A stretch of 49,252 nucleotides of DNA from Bacteroidales bacterium (lineage in GTDB: Bacteria > Bacteroidota > Bacteroidia > Bacteroidales > Tenuifilaceae): contig JABFRB010000032.1 in NCBI GenBank assembly GCA_013141385.1, positions 1 to 49,252 on the forward strand. Direction: 5' to 3'. Positions 867 to 48,766 of this stretch are shown piece by piece. How positions within the stretch are numbered: the stretch's first letter is position 1; each line of letters starts with the position of its first letter. Both the position numbers and the translations under genes were made by a program. The notes beneath the pieces were generated by a model. The model saw nothing but the letters and a program-made list of their open reading frames with translations, was not told the DNA's origin and did not search any database.

Positions 867-1060
867 TATTTTATCATATCTCCAATTTGATAAAATATAG
901 AATATGATTGATTTTGAAACCCCAAAAAAGATAAAATCGCCTTTTGATAATTTATAATAAATCATTAAGTTTGATAAAGATTACTAAAAGGTACACAATA
1001 CATTCCAATATGGGTTTATATATGTACTTTTAGTGTATATATAAACAAGTTGCCAGTAAT
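833..1060 (+). repeat. Upstream repeat unit A of the HEPN-like gene
   Basis: The first 74 bp (833-906) match 2342-2413 at roughly 90 percent. They are followed by a mini-ORF (904-957) ending in KKIKSPFDNL-stop, which resembles the extreme C-terminus of tyrosine recombinases. From 991 the unit continues into a GTAC...TATATAAACAAGTTGCCAG segment that matches 2611-2678. The unit ends directly before the HEPN-like gene. It accounts for most of the otherwise gene-free stretch 721-1077. Confidence 0.6.
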
Positions 1061-2150: not shown

Positions 2151-2198
2151 TACTGGCAATCGAGTAGGCAGCCGATGGGCTAAAAGCCTATCGGAGAG
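2151..2198 (+). repeat. Post-gene hairpin element shared with MNT cassettes
   Basis: TACTGGCAA (2151-2159) is the inverse of TTGCCAGTA at 1050. Just after it, CCGATGGGCT and AGCCTATCGG form a hairpin (2172-2194). The segment from 2165 resembles 39413-39448 and 40074-40108 on the minus strand, where it again lies in the gene-free DNA around an accessory gene. Confidence 0.55.
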
Positions 2199-2341
2199 CC
2201 TCCCCGCTCGCCGAAGTTTAGCGAAGCGTAACTTCGTCGTAATTAACCGAACGAATCCCGAAGGGATCGACGAAGTCAACTGAGCTCATCGAAGATAAAT
2301 AGCGGTCTTAAATCGCACCAATACCAAATTAAAATTCCCTT

Positions 2342-2678
2342 GCAAAGCAAAAAAACAAAAGGAGCAGACACTTTTGTTTTTCACATCTCCAATTTGATAT
2401 AATATAGAATATGGCTATTTATAAAAGACCAAAAAAGATATCAATAATGCTGGTTAAAATTTATTTATGAACTGTCAGGACATAAAAGAAGTAAAGCCAC
2501 TGAGATTTATATAGATGTAACAGAAAAGAGTAGCAGAAAAATTCGATCTCCATTAAATGATTTAATAATTTAAACTACTTTTGGTATAGAAATATTATAC
2601 CATAACAATGGTACAATATATACCAAATATTGTTGTATATATACCATTGGGTGGTATATATAAACGAGTTAGCGGCAA
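2342..2678 (+). repeat. Upstream repeat unit B with recombinase remnant
   Basis: This is the second copy of the unit that precedes the HEPN-like gene. It contains the 72-bp repeat (2342-2413), the recombinase remnant, and a segment (2611-2678) ending in TAAACGAGTTAGCGGCAAT. That last segment also occurs inverted at 42601-42664. The rest of the 2146-2774 gap (2199-2341) has no gene; it holds short AACTTCGTCG-type inverted bits only. Confidence 0.6.
2448..2573 (+). pseudogene. 3' remnant of a tyrosine recombinase/integrase
   Basis: An open stretch without its own start encodes LKFIYELSGHKRSKATEIY followed by IDVTEKSSRKIRSPLNDL and a stop. This is the C-terminal signature of XerD/IntI-type tyrosine recombinases: the GHxxxxxT box, the IY dipeptide with the nucleophilic Tyr, and a terminal SPLD-L-like tail. 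The upstream catalytic part is missing (TAA at 2445-2447), so only about 40 of 300 residues remain. It sits inside repeat unit B, immediately upstream of the putative recombination core, as an integrase gene would sit next to its attachment site. Confidence 0.7.
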
Positions 2679-2774: not shown

Positions 2775-3200
2775 ATGAATACAAAAAAAACTTTTCAAAA
2801 TGAAAAGATTAATGTAAAGATAATACTGTCAGCTTTATGGGTTGCAGTAATGTTTATCTATGTTTATGCTGATATTAAGACACTTTTTCAACCTAAGATT
2901 CTCGAGCAGATTATCTCAGGAATCGTGGCTGGAATGACAATTAACCAAGGTTTTTTATTTGCAGCAGCTATATTAATGTCTATTCCTGCAATTATGATAA
3001 TACTCTCACTGACATTAAGACCAAACATAAACAGATGGGTTAATATTATTATTAGTTTTTTATTTATTATTCTGATCATTATTTCACGTTTTGTGCCAGG
3101 CAAAATATGGTACTACTATATCTATTATCAGTCAATTGAAGCAATTTTTCATTTTCTAATAATTTGGTATGCATGGAGATGGCCAATACAAGAAGAATAA
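2775..3200 (+). CDS. DUF6326-like four-helix membrane protein
   Basis: The 141-residue protein has four hydrophobic segments (about 13-32, 55-85, 88-108, 115-136) and almost no soluble loops. The order of motifs YVYADIKTLFQP, ILMSIPAIMI and FLIIWYAWRWP resembles small DUF6326 membrane proteins, a family without assigned function. Start ATG has GGAT at a suitable distance upstream. A 21-codon mini-ORF (2692-2757) lies between the upstream repeat core and the gene; it may be a leader or debris. The gene lies between two repeat spacers and appears to be an accessory cassette. Confidence 0.6.
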   Translation: MNTKKTFQNEKINVKIILSALWVAVMFIYVYADIKTLFQPKILEQIISGIVAGMTINQGFLFAAAILMSIPAIMIILSLTLRPNINRWVNIIISFLFIILIIISRFVPGKIWYYYIYYQSIEAIFHFLIIWYAWRWPIQEE

Positions 3201-3230
3201 TAGAGAAATTAACAAAATAAAAGATAGATA

Positions 3231-3535
3231 CACGACCGCACAACAACGCCTATCTGTCATTGGGGTTTTACAGTGAAGTTGTTCTTTCGTAGCACGTTTG
3301 CAGGTTTGTGGTGGCGGAAAGTTTACAGCTTCGAAGTCCCCCCGTTAAGTGGAGGCTGTAAAAACAAAAATGATTGGGTTGGGCGGTCGGCTGTGCCGCC
3401 GTCCACCTATTCCTCCCGCTCGGCATTCTAAGACATAAGCAAATAAAATAGAATAATTATTTTTGTATTGCCAAATAACGACTGGCGGAGCCAAACTCCC
3501 AAACACAACAAATAAGCAAAACGTTAGCGTGTCAT
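3231..3535 (+). repeat. attC-like spacer S1
   Basis: This gene-free stretch separates two small membrane protein genes. It contains the hairpin TTTACAGC (3322-3329)/GCTGTAAA (3355-3362), GC-rich arms, and a right end GGCGGAGCCAAACTCCCAAA...ACGTTAGCG (3484-3529). The right end is similar to the reverse complement of 49091-49132, upstream of parD. The ACGTTAGC half-site recurs at the ends of spacers S2 and S3. I see no ORF of credible quality inside. Confidence 0.55.
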
Positions 3536-10355: not shown

Positions 10356-10419
10356 TTCCTTCTGGTTGATTTTATTATTGTCTGCAATAATACCTAATAA
10401 AGAATAAACAACCCAAATT

Positions 10420-10510
10420 GTCATTCCTGCGAACCGTTAGCTCATGAGCGAAGCGAATAATGCAGGAATCTATTTCTTTTAATAGATTCCGGGACTTCGC
10501 CCGGAATGAC
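10420..10510. repeat. GTCATTCC dispersed palindromic repeat, copy 1
   Basis: It begins GTCATTCCTGCGAA and ends with the hairpin TTCCGGGACTTCGCCCGGAA followed by TGAC, so that the ends GTCATTCC/GGAATGAC pair. Related copies lie at 34749-34812 and 23920-24073. Such repeats occur in unrelated genomes between genes and may serve as terminators. Confidence 0.7.
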
Positions 10511-10575
10511 ATTAAGTTTCTTTTTTATTTTAGGTATAATGGCAGATATACATATTTTAAAATTCTATTTCTTGA

Positions 10576-19140: not shown

Positions 19141-19279
19141 GTTTGCTAACGTTTCGTGGTTGGGACAATTGGGGAGTTAGCTGCAACTATCTCGTCCCAC
19201 GGTAAAAACATACTAAAATAGTAAAAACATTTGTATCTGCATCATCCGCCCCAATTGGATTTGCCACGTGTTGGCAGCA
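19141..19279 (-). repeat. attC-like spacer S2 with long fold-back
   Basis: Arm 19145-19174 (GCTAACGTTTCGTGG...CAATTGGGG) pairs imperfectly with arm 19249-19275 (CCCCAATTGG...CCACGTGTTGGC). The long loop ends in TTTTTACCGTGGGACGA on the minus strand. The spacer separates two minus-strand genes, each carrying the same type of half-site at its ends. It shares sequence with 48334-48462. Confidence 0.65.
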
Positions 19280-19281
19280 GT

Positions 19282-20007
19282 TTATTTTTTTATTATTACT
19301 ATGCTAAATTTTATGGTATCAATAATATTTCCGTAAAACTCATTGCATCCAACTTCAAATGTTTCATTTGTTATCTTCCATATTTTAACCATTGCATTTG
19401 ATTCTGACACAGGTATTACTAATGGAGATGTATCAAAAGCAGGTAATTTATCTCCTAAATTTGTCTTTAAATCAGCAAAATAAAATTTCTTCATGGTAGT
19501 ATCATTCTCATTAAATCTAAATTTAATAGAATTCACAATGTAAAAATTCTGTTTAATAATATTTTTACTATTAATGATGTCAATTTTGTTTTTTAATGAA
19601 TTCAAATTGGTGTTATTCTTCTTAACTTCTGAATCGAATGAGGATAAATTATTTGAAATGGACACTGTTTTTACTTCTAAAGTGCTTACGATAGAGTCCT
19701 TGTCTCTGATATTTCTTTCAGTGTTTTTTATTCTTGATTCTACAGGTAATAATTCTTTGTTTAATTCAGTTTTTATCTCTCTCTTAGCATTTTCAAGGGA
19801 GTTGTAACCAAGAATACCAGCCAATGCTACAATTACAGAAAATATCGCAACTAGAAATTCCATTTTATATTTGAGTTCAAAGTATTTTGAATCATTTAGT
19901 TCTTTGTTCTCAGATGTCTTTTTAGATTTCAGTTCTCTTAATGATAGTATATTCCAAATACTAAAAACTGATAAAGCCACTAAAGTAATTATCAAAATAA
20001 TTATCAT
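19282..20007 (-). CDS. Two-helix coiled-coil membrane protein in a cassette-like site
   Basis: The 241-residue protein has two N-terminal membrane helices (about 1-20 and 48-68). A long coiled coil follows (about 72-145, many Lys/Glu/Asn heptads such as VESRIKNTERNIRDKDS), then a C-terminal globular part rich in beta strands. I do not recognise the family. The perfect 10-bp inverted repeat GTTGGCAGCA (19270-19279)/TGCTGCCAAC (20026-20035) lies just outside both ends, which marks the gene as a cassette. It could be a sensor or stress protein; nothing decides this. Confidence 0.6.
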   Translation of the reverse strand: MIIILIITLVALSVFSIWNILSLRELKSKKTSENKELNDSKYFELKYKMEFLVAIFSVIVALAGILGYNSLENAKREIKTELNKELLPVESRIKNTERNIRDKDSIVSTLEVKTVSISNNLSSFDSEVKKNNTNLNSLKNKIDIINSKNIIKQNFYIVNSIKFRFNENDTTMKKFYFADLKTNLGDKLPAFDTSPLVIPVSESNAMVKIWKITNETFEVGCNEFYGNIIDTIKFSIVIIKK

Positions 20008-20025: not shown

Positions 20026-20105
20026 TGCTGCCAACTTATTTATGCATATACCAAAAGTATATTTATACATTAAATTTTAATGGATACGTATACCTTCTAG
20101 TATAT
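20026..20105 (-). promoter_or_regulatory. Cassette core plus AT-rich upstream element
   Basis: On the minus strand the sequence runs CTTTTGGTATATGCATAAATAAGTTGGCAGCAATTT-like into the gene at 20007. The same layout (TATATAAACRAGTTRSC core shortly before a start) is seen at 1031-1060 and 2651-2678. It may hold both promoter and recombination core. Confidence 0.4.
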
Positions 20106-20238: not shown

Positions 20239-20620
20239 TTCCCAAGTCACTTTTCTACATTCAAACCATTACTTTCTACATCGAAAACATTACTTTATAT
20301 ATCCAAAGTATTACTTCCTACATCGAAAGGATTACTTCTTACATTCCCAAGTCATTTGCCTACATCGAAAGCATTATTTTCTACATCCAAAATATTGCTT
20401 CCTACATCGAAAGCATTACTTCTTACATTCCCAAGTCGTTTTCCTATATCGAAAGCATTAGTTTTTATATCCAAAGTATTACTTCCTATATCGAAAGCAT
20501 TACTTCTTACATTTCCAAGTCGTTTTCCTATATCGAAAGCATTAGTTTTTATATCCAAAGTATTACTTCCTACATCGAAAGGATTACTTCTTACATTCCC
20601 AAGTCATTTTCCAACATGGA
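20239..20620. repeat. 21-bp tandem repeat array with 84-bp superunits
   Basis: Degenerate 21-bp units such as TTACTTCCTACATCGAAAGCA repeat throughout. The marker TTCCCAAGTC (or TTTCCAAGTC) recurs at 20239, 20344, 20428, 20512 and 20596, that is at 105, 84, 84 and 84 bp. Read as protein, either strand gives heptapeptide repeats (minus strand NAFDVGS type), but the minus frame is broken by TGA in the marker unit and the plus frame lacks an ATG start. I treat it as non-coding. Confidence 0.75.
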
Positions 20621-20733
20621 AAAATTCCAGTAAGACTCAAACCAAATAGGGGTGGGTGAATAAACCCCAACCCTTTAAATAAGTAGCTATGATAGTTGGC
20701 TTGAGGTTTGGAGAAATGACTTTACAACAAAAA

Positions 20734-34748: not shown

Positions 34749-34812
34749 GTCATTCCTGCGAATGCAGGAATCTATTTGTTTAACTTGATTCCGGGACTTC
34801 GCCCGGAATGAC
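34749..34812. repeat. GTCATTCC dispersed palindromic repeat, copy 2
   Basis: GTCATTCCTGCGAATGCAGG begins the copy and TTCCGGGACTTCGCCCGGAA plus TGAC ends it. The ends pair over eight bases. It lies in the 333-bp gene-free gap 34532-34864, in which I see nothing else. Confidence 0.75.
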
Positions 34813-34864
34813 AATTTGGATTATTTATTCTTTATTATGCATTATTGCGGACAATCATATTTTT

Positions 34865-36382
34865 TTAATACCCCAACTTTTCTAAAAACTTTCTTGTTAT
34901 CTCTGATACCTGTTCCCCGTATTGTCCATACCAGATAAAGTGACGAGCACCTTCTAATGGATGAAATTCAATGCTATTCCCTGCTTCTGTCATCTTTTTT
35001 ACAAACTGATCGGCAGTAGAGAATGGAACATTCCTATCTTGTGTCCCATGAATTATTAATGTTGGGGGTAACCCATTTTTTATTAGATAATTAGGTGATA
35101 TTTCTTTCACTAGATTTTCATCAAGGTTTCTTTCCTTTAACCCCTTTTTTATCCAGCTAGTATTGTCATCATTCAAATCAAATACACCCGAGATAACCAT
35201 CAACACATTAGGAACAGGGCTATACCTTAAATCATCTGTTTTTTCATTCCATTTATCGGCTAATGCTGTGGCAAGAACTAAATGACCTCCTGCACTATTT
35301 CCTGATGCCACAATACGGTTTGTATCGATATTATATTCATTGGCATGTTGTCGTAACCAGCGAATAGCCGATCTGGCATCCATAACCGACTCAAAAGGGA
35401 GTGTTCCATGCCTATACGCCAATCTGAATTCAACAGCAACACCAACCCATCCTTTCTTCGCATAGCTCTGACAGGCATAAAAATTCCAATCAGGCTTTCC
35501 CTCCGACCAACTGCCGCCAGAAAAATAAACTATCACAGGTCTTTTTTTATTTGGATCATCGTTTTTAGGTAAAAACAAATGTATTTCCAAATTGAAATCA
35601 TCAACTGTTTTATATATTTTAATTAGATGATCTTTTCTTCCACGCTCATCGTCTGTATATAATGCTCTAATTTTATTAACGTAAGATGTGTCCTTGCATG
35701 TAGTAATAAAAGTTTGATAAATATTTTCAAGATTTTTTATCCCGAAATTATCAATGTGATTATATAAATAATTAAACGTTAAATAATCAGCTACAGCTTG
35801 ATTCGAAAAATACTTTGGAATCAGATTCAGTGATGCTTGTAGCTGCTGATTATCGAGCTTTTTGTAGCTAGAGTTTTTAAGTTCAATACTCGATTGAAAA
35901 TACAAAAAAGCCTTTAGGTAAGCTTTAAAACTTTCAATTTGCAACAGTTCTGGATTATTAAACTCTTTAATATTTTCATTAATTCTTTGATCAATAAGCC
36001 CATTGGGTAAGGTTTTATCCCCAGTATAACTTTCATGAAAGTATGGATAATCAAGTAGAAATTTATCGAAAGAGTAATGAATATCCTTTGATTCTTTGTG
36101 GATAATAGATTTATCAAATTGTGGAATTTTTATTTCAAATAGTCTTAATTGTTCCACAAAGATATTTCTTAAAGAATCCACCTTTGAAATAAAATTTCGT
36201 TCATTTAAGGAGTATATTTTATTATAATTAGGAAAGAAATAAGCAGCAAATGATTGATTAATTGCCTCCTGTTCTAATTGAAATTGTTTATAAAGACTAT
36301 CGTTTAATTCCTTTTGCTGACCAATGCTTATTTTCGATATTATTATTAAGGAAATTATTAGGAAGAAGAAGATTTTTTTCAT
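34865..36382 (-). CDS. Secreted alpha/beta hydrolase (esterase/lipase)
   Basis: After a signal peptide and a helical N-terminal region of about 260 residues comes an alpha/beta hydrolase domain. Its motifs are VIVYFSGGSWSEGKPDW (oxyanion GG), VASGNSAGGHLVLATALA (nucleophile Ser in GNSAGG), IIHGTQDRNVPFSTADQF (Asp) and GARHFIWYG (His). This is the BD-FAE/carboxylesterase type. The long N-terminal extension is not a known domain to me. It may deacylate plant- or host-derived polysaccharides, but no polysaccharide utilisation genes lie nearby. Confidence 0.85.
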   Translation of the reverse strand: MKKIFFFLIISLIIISKISIGQQKELNDSLYKQFQLEQEAINQSFAAYFFPNYNKIYSLNERNFISKVDSLRNIFVEQLRLFEIKIPQFDKSIIHKESKDIHYSFDKFLLDYPYFHESYTGDKTLPNGLIDQRINENIKEFNNPELLQIESFKAYLKAFLYFQSSIELKNSSYKKLDNQQLQASLNLIPKYFSNQAVADYLTFNYLYNHIDNFGIKNLENIYQTFITTCKDTSYVNKIRALYTDDERGRKDHLIKIYKTVDDFNLEIHLFLPKNDDPNKKRPVIVYFSGGSWSEGKPDWNFYACQSYAKKGWVGVAVEFRLAYRHGTLPFESVMDARSAIRWLRQHANEYNIDTNRIVASGNSAGGHLVLATALADKWNEKTDDLRYSPVPNVLMVISGVFDLNDDNTSWIKKGLKERNLDENLVKEISPNYLIKNGLPPTLIIHGTQDRNVPFSTADQFVKKMTEAGNSIEFHPLEGARHFIWYGQYGEQVSEITRKFLEKLGY

Positions 36383-36523
36383 TTTATGCTAAATGTTTGT
36401 AGAAAAAGGCTGATAACCCTCTCGCACAGAGGATTGAGTTGGATTTCGCTTGTGCGGATTTGCAATTTTGAGTGTTCGAAACCTTGATGTGAATATGAGA
36501 AATATTTATTTTTTGCGTAATTG

Positions 36524-36931
36524 TCAAATTACGTTAAACGATGTTTTTGGATTTATATAATTTAAACCTAACGGTTTAACTTTTAGAAAGTCTTTGTCAT
36601 TATCAGAAAGCAAGATAAAATTATTTACCATTGCAGTAGCAGCAATAATAGCATCAGGCAATTTTATTCTTGTTTCTTTTTTTATTTGTATAGCCCTCAT
36701 TATAATATCATCGTTAATAAAATGTATTTCTGAACCTGCCAAAAATTCCTCAACAATTTTAATATCATTCAGATTTGGCGGATTCCAAACCAACAATTCA
36801 ATTTTTGTAATGAATGAAACATTACTATCATCATCAACTAGAGCATCCATAAAAGAAATTGCATCTGAAGGAAATTGATTGTTCAAATACTTGATAACCG
36901 CACAGGTATCTATTAAAAATCTCTGTCCCAT
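36524..36931 (-). CDS. PIN-domain ribonuclease toxin (VapC-like)
   Basis: The 135-residue protein starts MGQRFLIDTCAVIKYLNN. It has the full set of PIN acidic residues: Asp8, Glu45 (KIELLVW), Asp93 (KLPDAIIAATA) and Asp110/112 (LLSDNDKDF). So it should be an active Mg-dependent ribonuclease. Its start overlaps the antitoxin gene by 19 bp, the usual translational coupling. It is the third gene of a unit whose first gene is the large DUF4209-like protein. Confidence 0.9.
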   Translation of the reverse strand: MGQRFLIDTCAVIKYLNNQFPSDAISFMDALVDDDSNVSFITKIELLVWNPPNLNDIKIVEEFLAGSEIHFINDDIIMRAIQIKKETRIKLPDAIIAATAMVNNFILLSDNDKDFLKVKPLGLNYINPKTSFNVI

Positions 36932-37182
36932 TCGCTACGTAAATCTAAAATTTGATTGTCAATTTCTTTTTCACTCTGTTTGGTTAATTTCCCTCTTAAA
37001 GTTGATAATTTCCTTTTTGGTTTTTCAGATGACATTATGAATGTTGATCCAACTGGAGGACAGAACATAACAATATCGTTTTCGATACCACAAATAAAGT
37101 CATCAAAAGAAAAACCTTTAAATTCTGTTTGCCATCCTGCAATTTTATATTCAACCTGTGGTTCATTCACTACTGTTACCAT
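36913..37182 (-). CDS. Antitoxin-like protein upstream of the PIN gene
   Basis: The 89-residue protein ends in KPKRKLSTLRGKLTKQSEK and a C-terminal helix EIDNQILDLRSEWDRDF. That helix is typical of antitoxins that wrap VapC-type toxins. The N-terminal half (EYKIAGWQTEFKGFSFDDF; IVMFCPPVGSTFIM) is not a standard DNA-binding fold I can name. It overlaps its upstream gene by 20 bp and its toxin by 19 bp, so three genes form one coupled operon. Confidence 0.75.
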   Translation of the reverse strand: MVTVVNEPQVEYKIAGWQTEFKGFSFDDFICGIENDIVMFCPPVGSTFIMSSEKPKRKLSTLRGKLTKQSEKEIDNQILDLRSEWDRDF

Positions 37183-39097
37183 TGTTGTTTTCTCCTTTTA
37201 TTTCAATAAATTTATACTTACTTAATTTAATAATGATACAGAAAAGAATCACAATATGTTCAAAAGAATATTCAAAAACATCCATCAAACTATGAGCAAC
37301 TGCATTTCTTAAATTTAAACCTGCCTTCTCTGCTAGCACATATTTAATTAATATTCTGTCCTCCTCGTCAAAATTAGTTTTCTGTTCAGGTGAAATGCCT
37401 GCCAATAAATCATCAAGTAATTTTTCCATCACCAATTTATCAGAACCTTTTTGCCTTGTTTTAAATGTTGCGACTCCGATTTTTTCACAAAAATAACGTA
37501 AAAGTCCCTCAACTTTTAAAGTTAAACTATCGGTTATAGTAACAAAATCACATTGATAATTATTGTCAGCAAAGAATTTATCGAGTTCTTCAAAAACTCT
37601 TTTAAGTCCAGGTTTTAATGTATCAATTGGTTTTACATCTACTTTTTGTCCATGATAATTTCTAACAATAACTTCATTAAACCATGTGCCTTCTAAATAA
37701 AATAGAACGGAAGCATAATCTATTTTTTTGGCTTTATAAGCTTCGATAAAAAACCTATGCATGGTTTGTGTACCAACTTGAAAGTTAAATGTATATGAAT
37801 TCCAAAAATTGAATTTTTCTTTTTCTTCATCTGTATAAAATACATCAACAGTATTGCCAAACTTATCCATAATTGAAGTTGGTAACATGGAGAGCAAAAC
37901 AGTTTGGCTACTTAACTCAATAGAACGATCTTTAATATTTTGAATTTTATCGTACCAAGGCGATGTAATGAAATGATGAATTATGCCTTTTTCATCGTTT
38001 TCGGCAACAGTTTTTAAAATACGCTCATTCATATTATCTGCATATTCCTTTGGTAATCCCTGCTTTATTACCGACAAGCGAAACTTTCCTCTTAATTCAG
38101 CATAATATTTTTCTAATCTACTAATGTCATCAGTAAGTTTAATCTGTTGATAGATGCGAAGTGCATTTTCCGCAAAATTCACGCAAGCAAGATTAGCTTT
38201 ACTTTCTGCATCAGTTGCAAGTTTTTCATATAATTTCGCTTTGCAATTTAATAAGTAGACAACTGGTTTATTTCTTTTTTGTTCAATAGTAATATTACGA
38301 TCAATGGCATACATAGCACCCCAAGCATAGGTTTTTTCAAGTTCTTTTGCACCTTCCAAGTTTTTATCAAGTATTTTCTGAAAGTCTATTAATTTATTTG
38401 ATAAACCAAAATAATCAGACAATAAACCGGAAAGATCAAGTAAAATACGTAGAGTACCCTCTCTTGTCACATCCCAATCCTGATGAGTTTTAAAAATATA
38501 CTTTATTATATTTGTAAGTTCGGGTTCAAGATTTGATTTCTCTGCAACGCCAAATGCCATTCGAAGTGAATGAAAAAAGTGTATAACGTAATGATTCTTT
38601 TCACCGCCTTTATCTGCTTTGGTGTGATAATCTTTACTAAGTTGAAATAACTCATTACAAAGTTGACGTTTAAAATCATTACGTTTTGAAGTGGTTGTTT
38701 TCTGACCAAAGTAAACCATTAAACCATATTCTGTTTTTGCATAAAGATTCTTGCATTCATTGTATCGTTTTTCGAAATATTCAAAATCTTGCTGGGTATA
38801 TTTAGTAACATCAGGCCAGTAAAGAGGTATTTGGCTTCCATCCTCTAGAGTTTGAATGCCACTCATTTGCCAACTTAATCCTTTAATAATTCCTTTTTCA
38901 TTATCGTTTTTTTTATCAAAAGATTTTTGTACTGAAAAAACCTGTCTGTCAAGGTCAGCAATTGCTGCAATATCGTGTTTGCCCTCTTCAAAAAAAAATT
39001 TACAAATCTTCTGAAATTCAGAATTGATAACACGTACATCCTCACAATCATAAGAACTCTCATCAATTTTTTTTAAATATTGTGCAAGTGCATTCAT
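37163..39097 (-). CDS. DUF4209-like large HEPN-type protein
   Basis: This 644-residue cytosolic protein is nearly all helical. Near its C-terminus it carries GLNLRNAVAHSL, which fits both the RN-x3-H signature of DUF4209 and the R-x4-H motif of HEPN ribonucleases. I recognise no other domain in the N-terminal 500 residues (coiled or repeat-like helices; FFHSLRMAFGVAEKSNLE). It is the first gene of an overlapping operon with an antitoxin-like protein and a PIN ribonuclease. The combination of two potential RNases suggests an abortive-infection or toxin system; this is inference. The upstream 39098-39500 spacer carries barrel-gene repeat L. Confidence 0.55.
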   Translation of the reverse strand: MNALAQYLKKIDESSYDCEDVRVINSEFQKICKFFFEEGKHDIAAIADLDRQVFSVQKSFDKKNDNEKGIIKGLSWQMSGIQTLEDGSQIPLYWPDVTKYTQQDFEYFEKRYNECKNLYAKTEYGLMVYFGQKTTTSKRNDFKRQLCNELFQLSKDYHTKADKGGEKNHYVIHFFHSLRMAFGVAEKSNLEPELTNIIKYIFKTHQDWDVTREGTLRILLDLSGLLSDYFGLSNKLIDFQKILDKNLEGAKELEKTYAWGAMYAIDRNITIEQKRNKPVVYLLNCKAKLYEKLATDAESKANLACVNFAENALRIYQQIKLTDDISRLEKYYAELRGKFRLSVIKQGLPKEYADNMNERILKTVAENDEKGIIHHFITSPWYDKIQNIKDRSIELSSQTVLLSMLPTSIMDKFGNTVDVFYTDEEKEKFNFWNSYTFNFQVGTQTMHRFFIEAYKAKKIDYASVLFYLEGTWFNEVIVRNYHGQKVDVKPIDTLKPGLKRVFEELDKFFADNNYQCDFVTITDSLTLKVEGLLRYFCEKIGVATFKTRQKGSDKLVMEKLLDDLLAGISPEQKTNFDEEDRILIKYVLAEKAGLNLRNAVAHSLMDVFEYSFEHIVILFCIIIKLSKYKFIEIKGENNNGNSSE

Positions 39098-39269
39098 GTT
39101 TTACTCTTAGTTTACTTCTAATTCTTCACTTATTATCTTTAACACAATAAACTTTCAAAATTATCTTAATTTTAAGAGTGTTTTCAATTTTCATCCATTT
39201 ATAATGGGTTACATTTCAATTTATGTGTGTTATTTCTATCTTTTACAATTGCTGTCAAGCAATCTATGC

Positions 39270-39448
39270 ATATAATAAACCTATACCCTACACAAATATA
39301 TCTTTTGTTTTTTTAAAATCAAATTGGATATCAAAAGAATTAGTATACGATTATCGCCCAAACCGATAACCAATGTTCCACTCAAAACATTTTATGTAAT
39401 TGGTGTGAGAAACTCTCCAGATGGCCTTTTTAGCCTATCGGCAGCCTA
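39270..39448 (-). repeat. Barrel-gene 3'-end repeat, copy L
   Basis: The 35 bases at 39349-39383 are identical to 42740-42774, the last codons of the PagL-like gene (EWNIGYRFGR-stop). The similarity continues into the downstream side (TTTGTGTAGGG...). On the other side it joins TTTCTC and the GCCGATAGGCT hairpin (39413-39448), also seen in copy M. It lies directly 3' of the orphan MNT gene and fills most of the 39098-39509 gap. Confidence 0.75.
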
Positions 39449-39509
39449 TAGAGGCTAGCTACTATTTCTCCAGAAGTCTATTGATTTCTTCAATAAAAGT
39501 TGTTTTCAA

Positions 39510-39833
39510 TCACGCATGTAATCCATTAGCTAAAGCGTTCACGAAAATAGGTTGCTTTCCTCTCAAGGTCAAAAGTTCAGATTCGCCAATAATATGAGTA
39601 TCAGTTATTATATTGTATTTTAGATCAATTTCATAGCAAACATCCGATATTTCTCGTTCAATTTCCCAATCTGCTTTCTGTTTTAGAACAATAAGGATGT
39701 CGTAGTCAGAATCCTTATGTGCTTTTCCACTAGCCTGAGAGCCAAAAAGCACTACGTCTTTAATATCATCCGAAAATTTAGATTTCAGCAGATGACTTAA
39801 ATCTTTCAGAACTCTCTGTCTGTCAACTCTCAT
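39510..39833 (-). CDS. MNT-type nucleotidyltransferase, orphan
   Basis: The start at 39833 gives MRVDRQRVLKDLSHLLKSKF. The catalytic motif GSQASGKAHKDSDYDILIV (GS plus DxD at 31-45) is that of minimal nucleotidyltransferases, which in HEPN/MNT pairs AMPylate and silence the HEPN toxin. The usual HEPN gene directly downstream is missing: after the TGA the DNA only continues in frame for 15 codons (TTFIEEINRLLEK-stop), perhaps a HEPN remnant. The gene is bracketed by two copies of the barrel-gene repeat, so it was probably inserted as a unit. Confidence 0.8.
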   Translation of the reverse strand: MRVDRQRVLKDLSHLLKSKFSDDIKDVVLFGSQASGKAHKDSDYDILIVLKQKADWEIEREISDVCYEIDLKYNIITDTHIIGESELLTLRGKQPIFVNALANGLHA

Positions 39834-39879
39834 AAAAATAATTTTATTCAAAGATAATTAATCCTGATGAATTAATCTC

Positions 39880-40135
39880 GCCTACTAATCGAAAAATCCA
39901 CTTGCTACTAATTCGTTTATATGTACTGCATGATAAATCCATTCCCTACACAAATTTAATCTTAATTCCTCTAAGATTAAAATGTATATCAACAGAATTA
40001 GTATACGATTATCTCCCAAACCGATAACCAATATTCCACTTAATAAAACTCGTATGTACAGTGTTGTGAGAAACTCTTCAGATGGTCTTTTAGCCTAACG
40101 GCTACCTAATCGATTAGCGTTTCGTTGGTTTTGAA
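39880..40135 (-). repeat. Barrel-gene 3'-end repeat, copy M
   Basis: Bases 40007-40041 match the end of the PagL-like gene with three mismatches and still encode KWNIGYRFGR-stop. Next to it lies the CTCTTCAGATGGTC...GGCTACC element (40074-40108), as in copy L. The downstream part (39900-39960) leads into a TACATATAAACGAATTAGTAGC core before the MNT gene. It fills the 39834-40172 gap. Confidence 0.75.
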
Positions 40136-40172
40136 TTTTATTATTTTTCATGTTACAATATGTCTATGTTCA

Positions 40173-42056
40173 TTACTCAAGCATTAACTTATTTAAAACC
40201 TCATCACCGGGAATATAATCCCACTCAATTATAAATCGCTGTTCACCGTTACCAACATCGTTCCATGTCCCATCTGACCCCATTTGACCATAATCTTCAA
40301 TACCATTCATATTATTTGGTTCGCAAGATTTCCAATTTGCATATAGATAATTTGTCACTGTTTTGCAATTACAGGCAGCCCAATCCATTTCATTATTTCC
40401 AGTAATACAATTGGGGTTATTATAGTGCCAGTCGACCGTACTACATAAAGTACCATCAACCCAATGCCAAATCCCTTCCTGTCCAACATCCGTTAGTCCA
40501 ATCGAAACAGTTTCACCGGAGGGATCACAGAGACTATTAACAAAATTGTTTTCATCCAATGAGCTAATGATCACTAAATGACCACTAATACTTTCGCAAT
40601 AGGTTTTAGCGTCAGGCCAATTAAAGCCTTTAAATGATTTATAGTATAAATGTCCGTCATAAATACTGCCTTTAACTTTAATTTCGATGGGCTCGAATAA
40701 AAAAATATTACTCAAAGTTGAAGCATCAATGCTAAAGTTGTCATCATGTTCAGGGCATATTCCGTTTAAGTTTATATTAAAGTTCAGCTTTACTTTTGCG
40801 GTTATGTGTTGCTCTGCACCTAGCATACGTGTTGTACCGTTTTGTTTTCCTAAAACATTAATAACATAGCTGGAACTTTGCTCGTCGTAAATTACTGGGG
40901 TTTGAATCTCGGCAAGGGATGGAACTTCAATTTTAAGTTTAAGATCTGTATACTCGAGATTGGCTTCTAAAATAGTCGTTTCAATCGTGAAGAAAATCTT
41001 ATCGTATAAATACAGATTTATTGGATCTATCTTTAAATTCAATGGTACGGTAACCTCTTTATTTATGTTAAGATTGCAGGTTTTTGTGTTACCTGCCAGG
41101 ATATTTAATGGATCATTATTACTGGTTGTATATGAAGGTAATTGCATTTTTATTGCATCTAATGTTTGACTATTGAAATTGGATAAAACTTCCAATATTT
41201 TGGCTTCAAGACTTTGACAATCCTCAATTCTAGTATTTTCACTATCTTCAAACACATTCATTAGTTTCTTGTCGATTATTGTTGATATATCCCCAATTAT
41301 TGTAGTAGAATAATTAATATTATTCATAATACTAATGGCTGAAATACCCAGTCCGATATATGTTAGGCCAGAAATACTATTTTTCCCCCTAGAAACTTTT
41401 GTATCCATATTATAGAACTGATCGGTTATCAGAAGAGGGTAAATATTGCTTTTTTCATTGTAATCGAATTTTAATTCGGTAGAAACAGGGATACCAATTT
41501 CACATGGAACATGATATGAAATATTAGATAGCTGATCATTTGATATTGATACCACAAAGCCACCAATAGCTCTGAGAGATGTGTTTGGATCTCCATTTTG
41601 CAATTCCTTGCTCACATCCTGTGATGAGATATACTGAATAACTATCTCAATATCCCTAGTTAGAATATTGGGCTCTATTTTAACATATGCCCCATCAGAG
41701 GTTGAAATTGTACCTCCTGCTGGTCCAATAGTACCTTTTGTAAGAACATTAATTGGTATTGTATCTGAGTACGCTGAAGTACATGTCCCAGCAATTACTT
41801 CTGCCCTATAGTAAGCAGACGTTTTGGGTACAAGTTTTAGGGTACCACTGGTTGCCCCATCAATGGTTTCCCAGTTGTTCAAATCTTTTGTTTTCTGCCA
41901 ATAAACATTCCCGTAGTAGGAAGTCAGTTCAAGAATAATCGTATCTCCCGAATAAACAGGGTTATCTGTACTTTGTGAAGATATAAGATATTGACCTTTA
42001 GATTGGATAAATCCGAAGATTAGAATTATCGACAGTATATATCTAATTGATTTCAT
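40173..42056 (-). CDS. Secreted protein with ZU5-like and C-type lectin domains
   Basis: Signal peptide (ends near IQSKGQ), then an Ig-like segment (about 25-105, VYWQKTKDLNNWETIDG). A ZU5-like start follows (GTIGPAGGTISTSDGAYVKI), then a long unassigned beta-rich middle. The C-type lectin domain is C-terminal (about 480-615): GHLYYKSFKGFNWPDAKTYC, IGLTDVGQEGIWHWVDG, EPNNMNG and GTWNDVGNGEQRFIIEW. The EPN and WND motifs imply calcium-dependent sugar binding of mannose type. There is no T9SS tail on this protein, but a T9SS-sorted peptide is encoded just upstream. It may be a surface adhesin. Confidence 0.8.
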   Translation of the reverse strand: MKSIRYILSIILIFGFIQSKGQYLISSQSTDNPVYSGDTIILELTSYYGNVYWQKTKDLNNWETIDGATSGTLKLVPKTSAYYRAEVIAGTCTSAYSDTIPINVLTKGTIGPAGGTISTSDGAYVKIEPNILTRDIEIVIQYISSQDVSKELQNGDPNTSLRAIGGFVVSISNDQLSNISYHVPCEIGIPVSTELKFDYNEKSNIYPLLITDQFYNMDTKVSRGKNSISGLTYIGLGISAISIMNNINYSTTIIGDISTIIDKKLMNVFEDSENTRIEDCQSLEAKILEVLSNFNSQTLDAIKMQLPSYTTSNNDPLNILAGNTKTCNLNINKEVTVPLNLKIDPINLYLYDKIFFTIETTILEANLEYTDLKLKIEVPSLAEIQTPVIYDEQSSSYVINVLGKQNGTTRMLGAEQHITAKVKLNFNINLNGICPEHDDNFSIDASTLSNIFLFEPIEIKVKGSIYDGHLYYKSFKGFNWPDAKTYCESISGHLVIISSLDENNFVNSLCDPSGETVSIGLTDVGQEGIWHWVDGTLCSTVDWHYNNPNCITGNNEMDWAACNCKTVTNYLYANWKSCEPNNMNGIEDYGQMGSDGTWNDVGNGEQRFIIEWDYIPGDEVLNKLMLE

Positions 42057-42066
42057 GGTTCAACAT

Positions 42067-42468
42067 TTATTGTAATACAATCTTCTTATATAGGGAAATA
42101 CCTTTGCTTGAAATATTCATAATGTACAATCCCTTTGGTAATCTGGATAGGTTGTATTCTGCTGTTAATCCACTTGAATCTGGATTTTCTTCCGCAACAA
42201 AAACAATTTCACCAACCACTGAACTTAACTGTAATAGTACTTTTGAGTTCCACCTTCGCAATCCGAAATCAACTTTTATTAAACCAGCAGATGGATTAGG
42301 AAATATTTTAATCGGGCAAATTACTATGTCATTAATTGAACTAGTTATACACTGTTCAATTGGAGGTTGTTGAACCCTTAGTACAAAGCGTTTTGTTTGC
42401 GAAAAAACTTGTTGATTTAAAATGAAACAAAAGAACAAGTTTACTAAAAAATATAAGAAGAGTTTCAT
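42067..42468 (-). CDS. Short secreted protein with a T9SS sorting domain
   Basis: The 133-residue product consists of a signal peptide (MKLFLYFLVNLFFCFILN), a linker of about 30 residues, and a T9SS type A sorting domain. The sorting domain reads CPIKIFPNPSAGLIKVDFG, YNLSRLPKGLYIMNIS and KKIVLQ. It is unusual to have a sorting domain with almost no passenger. It ends 11 bp before the lectin protein gene, so they are probably co-transcribed. It may be a stub of a larger gene or a carrier for the lectin protein, which lacks its own tail. Confidence 0.8.
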   Translation of the reverse strand: MKLFLYFLVNLFFCFILNQQVFSQTKRFVLRVQQPPIEQCITSSINDIVICPIKIFPNPSAGLIKVDFGLRRWNSKVLLQLSSVVGEIVFVAEENPDSSGLTAEYNLSRLPKGLYIMNISSKGISLYKKIVLQ

Positions 42469-42600
42469 ATAGTAATTTTTAAAAAGTTCTATAACAGATT
42501 GATAGTAAATCTATATTTTAAATCCTCAAAATACAAATTCCGTTTTGATCTTTCATGAAAAATTCAATTTTAAAGGGAAGTATATATTCATCTAATGAAC

Positions 42601-42664
42601 ACTAACTCGTTTACAAATACCACCCAATGGTATCCATACTACCATGATTTGGTATGTATTGTAC
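42601..42664 (-). repeat. Cassette upstream element, inverted relative to 2611
   Basis: Read on the minus strand it is GTACAATACATACCAAAT...ATACCATTGGGTGGTATTTGTAAACGAGTTAGT. This agrees with 2611-2672 at most of 62-64 positions. Here it follows the 3' end of the PagL-like gene and precedes the T9SS/lectin pair. Confidence 0.7.
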
Positions 42665-42741
42665 CGTAAACCCATCTCTTACACAAATATAACTTTTGTT
42701 TTAGTAATATCAAACTGTACTTTAACAGGATTAGAATAAGA

Positions 42742-43926
42742 TTATCGCCCAAACCGATAACCAATGTTCCACTCAATAAAATCGGCAACATGGAATGCGT
42801 AATCACGAAGGGTAATGCCAATAAATAGGTTATTGGCAAAGTGGTATTTAATGCCTACTCTCTGGTGGAAGTTGGGCGATTGGTTTTTAATTTTCTTACG
42901 ATATAGGTAGAATGCAGGCTGTAGGGTTAGGGATAATTTGTTTATTACCAATTCGTATGAGGGATAAATGCTTACCTGAATTTTATCGCCTAGGGGCTTA
43001 TCAAATAGCACTGTTTGGTTATTATCAATGGCTACCTGAGCATTCACCGAGCCATTATACGTAATTGTGGTTCCAATCCCAAATTTTGACAGATGGCTTA
43101 TCTGCTTGTTATACATCACTGATAAGCCAAAAACAGGAAAATAAACACCCTCGTATTTCTCAATAATATTAATATTCACCGAATCGTATACCACATTCTT
43201 TACCCCAGCAAATACGGAAATCAACCATTCTTTGGAATGGATATACTTTGAAATATCCTGCGTGCGAAAGGATGGAGTATCGTAGAAGTTGTATTTTAGG
43301 CTAATTTTAGGTGCTACGGTGTTAATACCTAGGTTGGGTTCTTTAATGGTACCATTGGAAAAATGTGTAAGGCTAAACCCTGTAACCAACTCAATTTTAT
43401 GGGTTAAGTAGTATTGTAAATTCAAGCCAACATCAATCAGGAATGATTCTCCGGCACCCATAGCGGAATTGAACTTATTAGTAACCGGGTTAAATGATCT
43501 CCAGTTAAAGGTAGCACCAAATCCTAACTCGTAGTTAAATGATAATCTATTCCACCTTTTAAAGGGTGCATTAAAAAACCCGTATATAGCAATAGGATAG
43601 CCAATCTCCTTGGCGTTATAAAAATCGGCAAAGTATAAACCAACGCCCCAATTCGGGTATTTGTAAAGCTGCTCCCAAAGTTTATTCCCTCTGGTTTGTA
43701 TGGAGAATTTTATTGATGATGCCTGAAAATTGTTAATCTTTTCAGCTTCGATATTCGTTCCCCTAAGGAAATTATTGGTGGAAAAAACGTAACCATTCTG
43801 ATACATTGCCTGCATGGATGGACTATTCCAAATATTTATTCTATGATATTTCACAGAATCAACCTGTGATTGACTGAAGATAGGGAGTGCAAGAAAAACC
43901 AATGCGTAAAAGGTTTTCATTTTCAA
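42742..43926 (-). CDS. PagL-like acyloxyacyl hydrolase, outer-membrane barrel
   Basis: A signal peptide (ends near FSQSQ) precedes a beta-barrel of about 370 residues. The sequence FSLTHFSNGTIKEPNLGIN contains the H-x-S pair (His188, Ser190) and the SNG motif of PagL lipid A 3-O-deacylases. The protein is about twice the length of PagL, as is usual for Bacteroidota acyloxyacyl hydrolase-like proteins. It probably deacylates lipid A in the outer membrane. Its last 12 codons and about 60 bp beyond are repeated at 39349 and 40007, suggesting that its 3' end is an integration target. Confidence 0.82.
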   Translation of the reverse strand: MKMKTFYALVFLALPIFSQSQVDSVKYHRINIWNSPSMQAMYQNGYVFSTNNFLRGTNIEAEKINNFQASSIKFSIQTRGNKLWEQLYKYPNWGVGLYFADFYNAKEIGYPIAIYGFFNAPFKRWNRLSFNYELGFGATFNWRSFNPVTNKFNSAMGAGESFLIDVGLNLQYYLTHKIELVTGFSLTHFSNGTIKEPNLGINTVAPKISLKYNFYDTPSFRTQDISKYIHSKEWLISVFAGVKNVVYDSVNINIIEKYEGVYFPVFGLSVMYNKQISHLSKFGIGTTITYNGSVNAQVAIDNNQTVLFDKPLGDKIQVSIYPSYELVINKLSLTLQPAFYLYRKKIKNQSPNFHQRVGIKYHFANNLFIGITLRDYAFHVADFIEWNIGYRFGR

Positions 43927-47777: not shown

Positions 47778-48333
47778 TAGAACTTGATTTATGGTCTATA
47801 TTTAATCTCCAATCATATCCAAAATTCAAAATTCCTTCAAAACTTTATATTTCTCTTCTCACTTTTCTCCTTGGGGTAAGAATTTATTTTCTCTCGGAAA
47901 TATGGGGAATTGCACACCTAGTTTATTTAAATTACTTTATAAGATTCACTCCTTCAGGTTGTAAATATCTGACTATAAACATTCTAATACAAATATATAT
48001 TTTATTTAATTATATATCAATACTCATATGATTTATTTTGATACAAGTTGTTATTGAAAAACTTCGATTTATCATTCACATTGGCAAAACCTCACCAATT
48101 CGACTCAATCTCATCCTGCCATAAATAAGTAGACACGGGACATTCTGAAAACTTGCGGTGGAGATGGTGATTTTTTTGTTTTGTCTTATCCTGAAATAGT
48201 TTGACCCCAAACAAGCCAAATGGAAGAGATAAGACAGTTTCTCTGCAAAGGCATTTTGATTCATTGCAAAGAGATTTTGTTACTCTGCAATGGGGTTTTG
48301 TTGAGAAAATGGTTTGACGAATTGTAAATCTGC
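47778..48333. other. Gene-free spacer with a short 21-bp repeat run
   Basis: No credible gene is present. Positions 48241-48303 hold three degenerate 21-bp units (CTCTGCAAAGGCATTTTGATT, CATTGCAAAGAGATTTTGTTA-like, CTCTGCAATGGGGTTTTGTTG) that would encode heptapeptides of LCKGILI type on the plus strand. The rest is AT-rich; short ORFs in it have no supporting features. Confidence 0.5.
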
Positions 48334-48462
48334 GCTAACGTTTGCTAAAAAGCGTTGGGAAGTTCGAAGCAGCGTTATCGTTCCACGGTAAAACTGATGC
48401 TAATACACTACAATAAAAACTATCTAACCGTCAATTAAAATGGATTTTAGCTGCTGTTGTAT
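48334..48462 (-). repeat. attC-like spacer S3
   Basis: On the minus strand it runs from GCAGCTAAAATCCATTTTAATTGACGG through TTTTACCGTGGAACGATA to AGCAAACGTTAGCGCAG. The order and sequence match spacer S2 (19141-19279), including the ACCGTGG block and the AGCAAACGTTAGC end. It lies directly 3' of parE. Confidence 0.6.
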
Positions 48463-48469
48463 GCAATTT

Positions 48470-48766
48470 TTATTCGTCGATTCGGTTTTCAATGTCCATT
48501 TTGTGATGTAAAACCCTTATTATTTCAACAATATTCCTTCTGGATTTCTTATAGAAAATAATGTGCGACTTCACCATTGATGCTCTATATCCTTTTTTAA
48601 TGTAGTCAACGGATTTTCCACTTTCAAAGTTCTCAGAAATAAACTCGATTTCGTCTAAAATTAGATTGTAGTATCTATCAGCTTGCTCAAGCGACCAGTT
48701 TTCAAATGTGTATAACCATATCTTTTCTATATCTTGATTTGCTTTCTCACTAATTAAGTATCTCAT
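48470..48766 (-). CDS. parE: ParE/RelE-superfamily toxin
   Basis: The 98-residue protein reads MRYLISEKANQDIEKIWLYT at the N-terminus. It contains EQADRYYNLILDEIEFISEN and GYRASMVKSHIIFYKKSRRN, ending in the usual VEIIRVLHHKMD. This is a complete ParE-type toxin, which poisons gyrase in studied cases. It overlaps parD by four bases (ATGA type), so translation is coupled. Flanked by attC-like spacers on both sides. Confidence 0.9.
   Translation of the reverse strand: MRYLISEKANQDIEKIWLYTFENWSLEQADRYYNLILDEIEFISENFESGKSVDYIKKGYRASMVKSHIIFYKKSRRNIVEIIRVLHHKMDIENRIDE

Follow-up and report, generated by a model that had tools for sequence, protein, structure and literature searches.

The contig analysed here, 49,252 nucleotides from a Bacteroidales genome of the family Tenuifilaceae (JABFRB010000032.1; "the window" denotes its whole length), raises the question of why the 3' end of a gene for a PagL-like barrel protein is found there three times, with unrelated genes between the copies. 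We call R3 the copy attached to the barrel gene and R2 and R1 the outer copies; all are on the minus strand, along which the order is barrel, R3, a type IX secretion system (T9SS) protein, a lectin protein, R2, a nucleotidyltransferase, R1, a DUF4209 gene, an 89-aa open reading frame (ORF), a PIN gene and a conserved abhydrolase gene. The genome of the window is designated G000 (the window being its contig C32) and its sister genome G002. We conclude that the barrel locus is probably a platform at which a Bacteroidales integron inserts cassettes, and that R1 and R2 would be decayed copies of this platform that end the inserts in a delta-attI-like manner. The grounds for this reading lie in sequence comparison, namely in the repeats, the insertion hotspot, a family of attI-like sites and its adjacency to recombinase genes, attC sites with covarying arms, their polarity, the promoter boxes and the turnover of contents.

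Direct comparison bore out what an earlier note on this DNA had read from its letters: the 35 bases at 42740-42774 recur at 39349-39383 (35/35), and those at 40007-40041 differ from both other copies at three of 35 positions. The similarity runs on downstream, as the note had also claimed, over about 110-129 bp at 74-85%, and the gene contents it had proposed correspond to the Pfam families PF09411 (barrel), PF18962 (T9SS), PF00059 (lectin) and PF01909 (nucleotidyltransferase). The repeat family of 129 nt lies in register at 39262-39390, 39920-40048 and 42653-42781, the first copy being 74% and the third 77% identical to the second. A search of the whole genome with positions 39250-39470 recovered 39930-40108 (80%, E = 1.1e-37), 42667-42776 (85%, E = 1.2e-28) and a fourth copy of the non-coding part only at C37:53606-53678 (E = 1.4e-11); the similarity is far above chance. 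Apart from the three island copies, the partial copy on C37 and a shorter one at 2610-2672, the genome gave short matches only, and with so few copies a high-copy dispersed repeat or miniature inverted-repeat transposable element was rejected as the source. Another repeat family of the window, in direct and inverted copies of 80-89% identity, lies at 10373-10558 and 34761-34863.

The outer copies could be remnants of tandem units, each a full-length barrel gene with its platform, from which all but the tail has been deleted. Translated searches (tblastn) of the island found barrel likeness for residues 383-394 (E = 4e-4) and 385-394 (E = 0.002) only, the next best among the matches listed having E = 0.31, and the longest word common to the island and the barrel gene minus its last 45 nt is 12 nt. 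Because the match is limited to the last 10-12 residues and no longer word is found, the copies are tails beside which nothing of a full-length paralogue can be seen, and full-length tandem paralogues were rejected as their source; the earlier note had named such paralogues as what would overturn its reading of short duplications. Moreover, on the barrel-upstream side of both R1 and R2 lies a segment of about 60 bp, here called U, that does not occur in the barrel gene. The two U segments have 59 identical columns in 75-nt windows, the onset of barrel likeness at their junction is sharp, and in barrel coordinates the two breakpoints differ by no more than about 7 nt (the alignment is ambiguous there). 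The deletion of tandem units is in keeping with the variable lengths of the recombinase tails described below, which fit stepwise decay, and with the apparent decay by internal deletion of some platform-anchored genes (the Rpn-like gene at L168 compared with that at L178). We nevertheless consider it improbable, since both copies break at nearly one position against the same foreign U and the break of R2 coincides with an att core. The possibility that U is an attC was rejected, as no R''/R' complementarity was seen by eye; also by eye, U resembles a decayed terminator hairpin like that at window 2165-2210.

What, then, lies behind the barrel gene? From about 27 to 136 bp past its stop codon R3 is, as judged by its letters, an integron-type platform consisting of a promoter and an attI-like site. 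The element of approximately 78 bp ends in AAACGAG|TTAG and stands downstream of TTTG-N19-TATATTTG; it recurs at window 2598-2676, where the coding sequence for a tyrosine recombinase C-terminus immediately precedes it, and directly after the recombinase genes of genomes G007 and G003. The likeness of the R3 site to 2610-2672 was also found by blastn (E = 8.8e-15), independently of the site model. This model, built from 14 training examples including R3 and run on 31 genomes with the best 150 candidates scored per genome, so that all counts are lower bounds, located at least 63 attI-like sites in 10 of the genomes (at least 18 in G000 and at least 21 in G002). Fifty-two of the 63, being all sites of G000, G002, G003, G004 and G007, were taken as the sample for closer comparison. 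Two held-out sites lie 23 nt past the stop of an intact recombinase gene (G004:C150) and 22 nt past that of a stop-containing one (G002:C59); the corresponding distances are 24 nt in G003, 21 nt in G007 and 24 nt for the fragment in the window. By position and likeness, these would be attI sites beside their integrase gene. The second arm of the site forms a conserved hairpin, in which five of the 10 pairs show double changes. Attached to this family are several observations of a different kind. Sites stand just behind genes that we take to be Rpn-like, or behind their remnants, at L168, L176, L178, L161 and L169; the gene at L168 has retained, of what is present in L178, an upstream part and the final 103 nt, and the tails of these genes were dropped as a second case of tail copying and are not counted as support, given that the flanks suggest internal deletion in at least one of them. 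Tandem repeats with an 84-bp period (88-92% alike) occupy window 20273-20622, upstream of the attI-like site at 20027, with several overlapping matches to the site flanks in L158/L173, L171 and L180.

The promoter-like part of the platform is equally recurrent. The pattern TTTG-N17-22-TAnnTTTG, taken as the promoter consensus, is found exactly, at a near-constant place, before 22 of the 52 sites, before 32 with at most one mismatch and before 40 with at most two; over 100 letter-shuffles the means were 0.12, 1.87 and 14.07 and the maxima 1, 6 and 22 for zero, one and two mismatches, respectively. Twelve sites have no match even at two mismatches. R1 and R3 carry the exact pattern and R2 a copy with one mismatch, so that every insert may have a copy of its own to be transcribed from. 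In G003 and G004, whose recombinase genes are intact, the final codons (SP-FD-DL) supply the TTTG box with their TTTGAT, and the end of the G007 gene matches with one mismatch; a promoter box within the last codons of the recombinase offers a reason for tails to travel with sites. Scored with a position-specific scoring matrix (PSSM) for the recombinase tail, 21 of the 52 sites exceeded 99% of the null, comprising four on the recombinase gene itself (on which the matrix was trained), two with odd spacing and 15 orphan tails located 16-30 nt upstream of the site. On these 15 cases, having a gene tail next to the site is a general habit of the family. From the spacing, the barrel promoter may itself descend from a decayed recombinase tail, but this is a guess, as the tail score is at background in R3 and in the barrel site of G002, and on C37 falls above the 95% but below the 99% null level. 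A related arrangement may be seen in the first 2.7 kb of the window, where the platform at 980 is followed by a gene of 355 aa, a copied platform-upstream segment (833-933 compared with 2342-2440, 87%) and then the site at 2598.

Comparison with other genomes supports, at the level of sequence, the view of the barrel locus as an insertion hotspot of site-specific appearance. Barrel relatives occur in 44 of 60 genomes (its own included), the closest being that of G002 (90%), followed by others at 64% and 59%, and in a second genome collection the closest were the same 90% contig, listed there as JACABB010000021.1 (metagenome-assembled genome Bacteroidales bacterium Cfx3-06) and taken to be that of G002, and another at 67%. 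In G002 (locus L039) the barrel and the abhydrolase gene are conserved while the intervening DNA is unrelated, and one tail copy was found; the genes between, named from their translations by eye, are a 301-aa gene, a Dam-like methylase, an HNH-like protein and HipB/HipA-like proteins. Four pairs of sites in G000 and G002 (window 980/L179, barrel/L039, L158/L173 and L166/L183) agree at 89-92% over at least 800 nt of upstream flank, which ends no more than 4 nt from the site, and in none of the four was common downstream DNA found within 1.9 kb at E = 1e-10; other pairs have shorter or rearranged common flanks. With the upstream side kept and the downstream side replaced in four pairs, the barrel locus is one of several shared platforms. 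At nine more distant barrel loci (L041, which is the L082 contig, L042, L072-L077 and L079) the tail is conserved as coding sequence; no attI-like site was seen behind the barrel by eye, nor did the site model detect one in the six loci scanned with it (L041, L042, L072, L073, L076 and L077).

The earlier note had proposed repeated site-specific insertion with the 3' end of the gene itself as target, as happens at tRNA genes. The insertion part gains from the hotspot and from the different contents in G002. The target does not hold, as it would be the integron platform past the stop codon, the barrel tail being a passenger; the reading frame is preserved as the note had stated, the barrel ORF being untouched because it lies upstream of the platform. 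An integrative element entering repeatedly at the barrel 3' end would account for the kept ORF and the repeated tail, and U, common to both outer copies, stands where an arm of the element itself would be expected. We consider such an element highly improbable, however: a Pfam scan of the seven gene products encoded between 34.8 and 42.5 kb (island and right flank) found no recombinase, the remnants in this genome are of integron type, the same att site stands behind many other genes or behind none, and attCs follow the sites. A recombinase travelling with the inserts, for which the note had suggested looking, is thus absent from these seven products, a matching one being encoded elsewhere in relatives, and the empty site with a single copy was not found either, since G002 has one copy but its platform holds other cassettes.

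The attC-like elements, of 130 bp with AAC...GTT ends, often lie behind genes downstream of attI-like sites. In 12 aligned examples both ends are invariant, and 11 of 14 arm pairs show double changes with pairing kept. Single-strand DNA folding of five early attCs gave a mixed picture: three were clearly better than their shuffles (z = -2.35, -3.19 and -4.11), whereas both window examples were not (0.76 and -0.51). Scanning for strict AAC/GTT palindromes (two matches in the real sequence of the window, L039 and L040, none in shuffles) overlooked both attCs of the window and was abandoned as too strict in favour of a covariance model. With 109 or 150 candidates scored, so that counts are again lower bounds, the model matched 20 of 31 genomes, with at least 96 attCs in G004, at least 55 in G007 (56 when searched alone), at least 49 in G000 and at least 42 in G002; outside the family, attCs were found in three of 12 genomes. 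Thirty-seven of the 56 in G007, none of them a training sequence, lie on one strand within 50 kb (1,524,153-1,573,796), directly behind the recombinase gene and its site at 1,574,682-1,574,759, and no opposite-strand attC was among the matches listed for this interval. A second cluster in G007 (C1 2,769,130-2,788,757) has nine same-strand attCs behind the attI-like site 2788680-2788757, before which the tail PSSM detected no recombinase tail. A whole small integron is found on one strand of G004:C150, with recombinase gene, site, 138-aa ORF and attC (a training sequence), and the barrel platform of G002 is followed by two attCs (L039 9445-9576 and 11293-11426, both training sequences). Across the sample, an attC lies at most 2.2 kb downstream on the same strand of 27 of the 52 sites (12 of these attCs being training sequences), and over the same distance no attC was found at any of the 52 on the upstream side or the other strand.

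The recombinase appears to be a XerA/IntI-like tyrosine recombinase without the IntI-specific insertion. Against NF040815 ("site-specific tyrosine recombinase/integron integrase", cut-off 220) the proteins of G007, G004 and G003 scored 223, 222 and 214 bits, and against TIGR02249 (integron integrase, cut-off 265) they reached 191-200 bits in two separate stretches, compared with 139 bits for the XerD of G000 and 147 bits for a further recombinase of G003; this model also had matches in 14 named control genomes, none above its cut-off. In alignment with IntI4 (2a3v), residues 10-183 and 241-317 are matched and 15 residues replace the 57 of chain positions 184-240, which indicates that the IntI-specific additional domain near patch III is missing. 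Integron finders rely on this domain. It is treated as defining in PMC9668308. The recombinase gene of G001 extends past its contig end. G000 has C-terminal pieces only (C32:2454-2564 and C5:3197-3295), besides five other tyrosine recombinases. As a separate observation, the C-terminal fragment stands in two places, window 2440-2554 and L170 (G000:C5) 3180-3294, the C5 copy breaking into different sequence, and no attI-like site was among the matches listed at L170.

How could the tails have been copied on such a platform? Cassettes would enter at G|TT of the platform site, by a recombinase whose activity and attI x attC crossover we infer, and would be transcribed from the platform promoter. 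R2 and R1, as copies of barrel tail, promoter and site, would close the T9SS/lectin and nucleotidyltransferase inserts instead of attCs. The integrase may have acted at a secondary site within the barrel tail (junction 42783/40049), giving an excised circle of tail, promoter, attI, gene and U whose reinsertion would leave tails behind, and the unit of U, tail, promoter and site might spread afterwards. The U/tail junction of R2 reads ...TGTACATACGAG|TTTTATT, and a matrix of 14 nt for the att core, trained on 14 cores with R1-R3 excluded (three from elsewhere in the window and one from the barrel site of G002 being included), ranked G 40049 tied 6th-8th among 98,478 window positions, the R3 core 3rd and the right-hand core of R2 4th. 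Compared with delta-attI cassettes, R2 and R1 stand in the place of attC and R2 has kept its core, while both sites are degenerate.

Several results weigh against this account. The R1 junction (39388) is not att-like (rank 11,272 of 98,478), and the barrel junction reads GATTTT where GTTTT would be expected, one base off, so that the proposed crossover is not letter-perfect. The model gives R2 only 13.2 bits and has no match for R1 among the matches listed, and R3 belongs to its training set. The attC model found no attC within the barrel island, and inserts 1 and 2 are accordingly not canonical cassettes; nor have 25 of the 52 sites an attC within 2.2 kb, some of them lying near contig ends with less DNA to check. 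The XerD of G000, taken as control, itself passes NF040815 with 221.5 bits, so the name of the recombinase rests on a weak discriminator. Finally, a genome search found no intact recombinase of this type in G000, where it may have been lost or lie within an assembly gap; the platforms of G000 would be served, now or formerly, by a lost or unassembled enzyme.

In another conceivable history, U, tail and platform were joined once and the unit was then copied by homologous recombination or segmental duplication without any integrase. U and the post-stop sequence are common to R1 and R2, against R3, and the 35 bases over which R1 and R3 agree fully, next to a flank in which 56 of 73 are identical, resemble gene conversion. 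A recent conversion is a possible source of the identity of R1, the barrel tail of G002 differing from that of the window at five of 35 bases. Plain duplication leaves the unrelated genes between the copies unexplained, the locus is a platform whose contents have turned over completely between two species, and we therefore regard copying without an integrase as unlikely, if somewhat less so than the deletion of tandem units. With an att-like junction at R2 and an unrecognised one at R1, we favour a history in which the integrase joined the parts at the R2-type junction and the resulting unit then spread.

A broader proposal is more tentative, and we put it forward as a possibility that we hold with less than even confidence: a recombinase lacking the IntI domain would run genuine attC arrays, while the unit of promoter and attI, whose promoter begins within the final codons of the recombinase gene, would tend to take a gene tail along and would be mobile, seeded behind many genes as docking sites without integrase and copying ordinary gene tails. 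In the sedentary chromosomal integrons of Treponema (PMC3607928) the integrase gene is transcribed toward attI, in the cassette direction, and attCs lie between the cassette genes; the recombinase gene here is likewise transcribed toward its attI, with attCs between genes. Unlike those integrons, most of the attI-like sites here (at least 18 sites in G000, at least 21 in G002) are without an integrase gene, and the recombinase has no IntI-specific insertion, which may be a further difference. For class 1 and 2 integrons, PMC12901181 describes cassettes in which 14-244 nt of attI form the end where attC would be expected, those assayed being functional. R2 and R1 may resemble these delta-attI cassettes, one of which has a piece of 244 nt, in that a stretch of attI whose length varies would stand where the cassette gene should be followed by attC; the duplicated piece here differs in starting inside an unrelated chromosomal gene and in bringing a promoter-like site to the next gene. 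The attG sites of the same paper are similar in that cassettes enter the chromosome outside an integron, and different in that they are strongly divergent from classical att, whereas the platforms here have a conserved attI-like site with promoter-like boxes. Cassette promoters are placed there within or very near intI (PMC12901181), and the promoter here is also partly inside the integrase gene, with its -33 box in the last codons (Phe-Asp, TTTGAT), at the 3' end. Reports of complete integrons in Bacteroidetes are few (PMC9024848); that of Salinibacter ruber M1, of the same phylum, is reported as complete and is likened here by its description. Judged from its listings, a literature search that reached few subscription papers and no preprints gave no description of the present Bacteroidales system. 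A domain-less recombinase heading an array of 37 attCs would suggest an overlooked class of integron. If dispersed attI platforms with their own promoter are real, one integrase could act at many landing sites in the chromosome, a gene captured at any of them would be expressed at once, and the origin of new cassettes and of cassette ends becomes testable.

Table 1. Features of the barrel island and of the remaining integron-like elements of the window.
Feature	Position	Strand	Basis
PagL-like barrel gene, 394 aa, anchor upstream of the platform	42742..43926	-	PF09411 6.4e-14; 90% orthologue in G002
R3 tail, last barrel codons recurring in R1/R2	42742..42783	-	sequence comparison
R3 promoter-like site TTTG-N19-TATATTTG (Pc)	42684..42714	-	exact match to the promoter consensus
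R3 attI-like site; predicted crossover after G at 42606	42598..42677	-	72.3 bits, in the model's training set
Insert 1, T9SS sorting-domain protein	42067..42468	-	PF18962
Insert 1, C-type lectin domain protein	40173..42056	-	PF00059
Segment U of insert 1, end ...TGTACATACGAG|TT; G 40049 at junction to barrel tail	40049..40108	-	att-core matrix
R2 barrel-tail copy	40007..40048	-	sequence comparison
R2 promoter-like site, one mismatch	39951..39982	-	pattern match
R2 degenerate attI-like site, hairpin lost; core position G 39912	39904..39973	-	only 13.2 bits, E 0.47
Insert 2, nucleotidyltransferase, 113 aa	39510..39851	-	PF01909 1.1e-11
Segment U of insert 2; junction 39388	39388..39448	-	59 identical columns with R2 side in 75 nt
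R1 barrel-tail copy, 35 nt identical to barrel	39349..39387	-	direct comparison
R1 promoter-like site TTTG-N19-TATATTTG	39293..39323	-	exact match
DUF4209 gene behind R1	37163..39097	-	PF13910 2.8e-07
89-aa ORF and PIN-domain gene, toxin-antitoxin-like	36524..37182	-	PF01850 for 36524-36931; 36913-37182 without Pfam match
Conserved right flank, abhydrolase	34865..36446	-	92.5% to L039 13715-15309; G002 homology resumes at 36446
attI-like platform, second in the window, after orphan recombinase tail KIKSPFDNL*	980..1057	+	78.8 bits (training set); tail PSSM 29.0
Recombinase C-terminal fragment (match 2454-2564) and attI-like site (2598-2676)	2454..2676	+	site in training set
attI-like site with tail NIKFPFDGLL, attC downstream	20027..20104	-	58.1 bits (training set); tail PSSM
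attC behind gene 19282-20007	19144..19276	-	123.4 bits (training set)
attC behind gene 48470-48766	48333..48462	-	105.1 bits (training set)

The contents of the putative cassettes include genes resembling toxin-antitoxin or defence systems (PIN, nucleotidyltransferase/HEPN-like, DUF4209, Dam/HNH-like and HipBA-like, partly named from translations by eye), found at window 36524-37182 and 37163-39097, at L040 7980-8662 and at L039 9647-13287. Two contigs of G003, L196 (G003:C130) and L197 (G003:C167), share the attI-like sequence with which they start; assemblies may thus be prone to break there and metagenome-assembled genomes may lose integrase genes.

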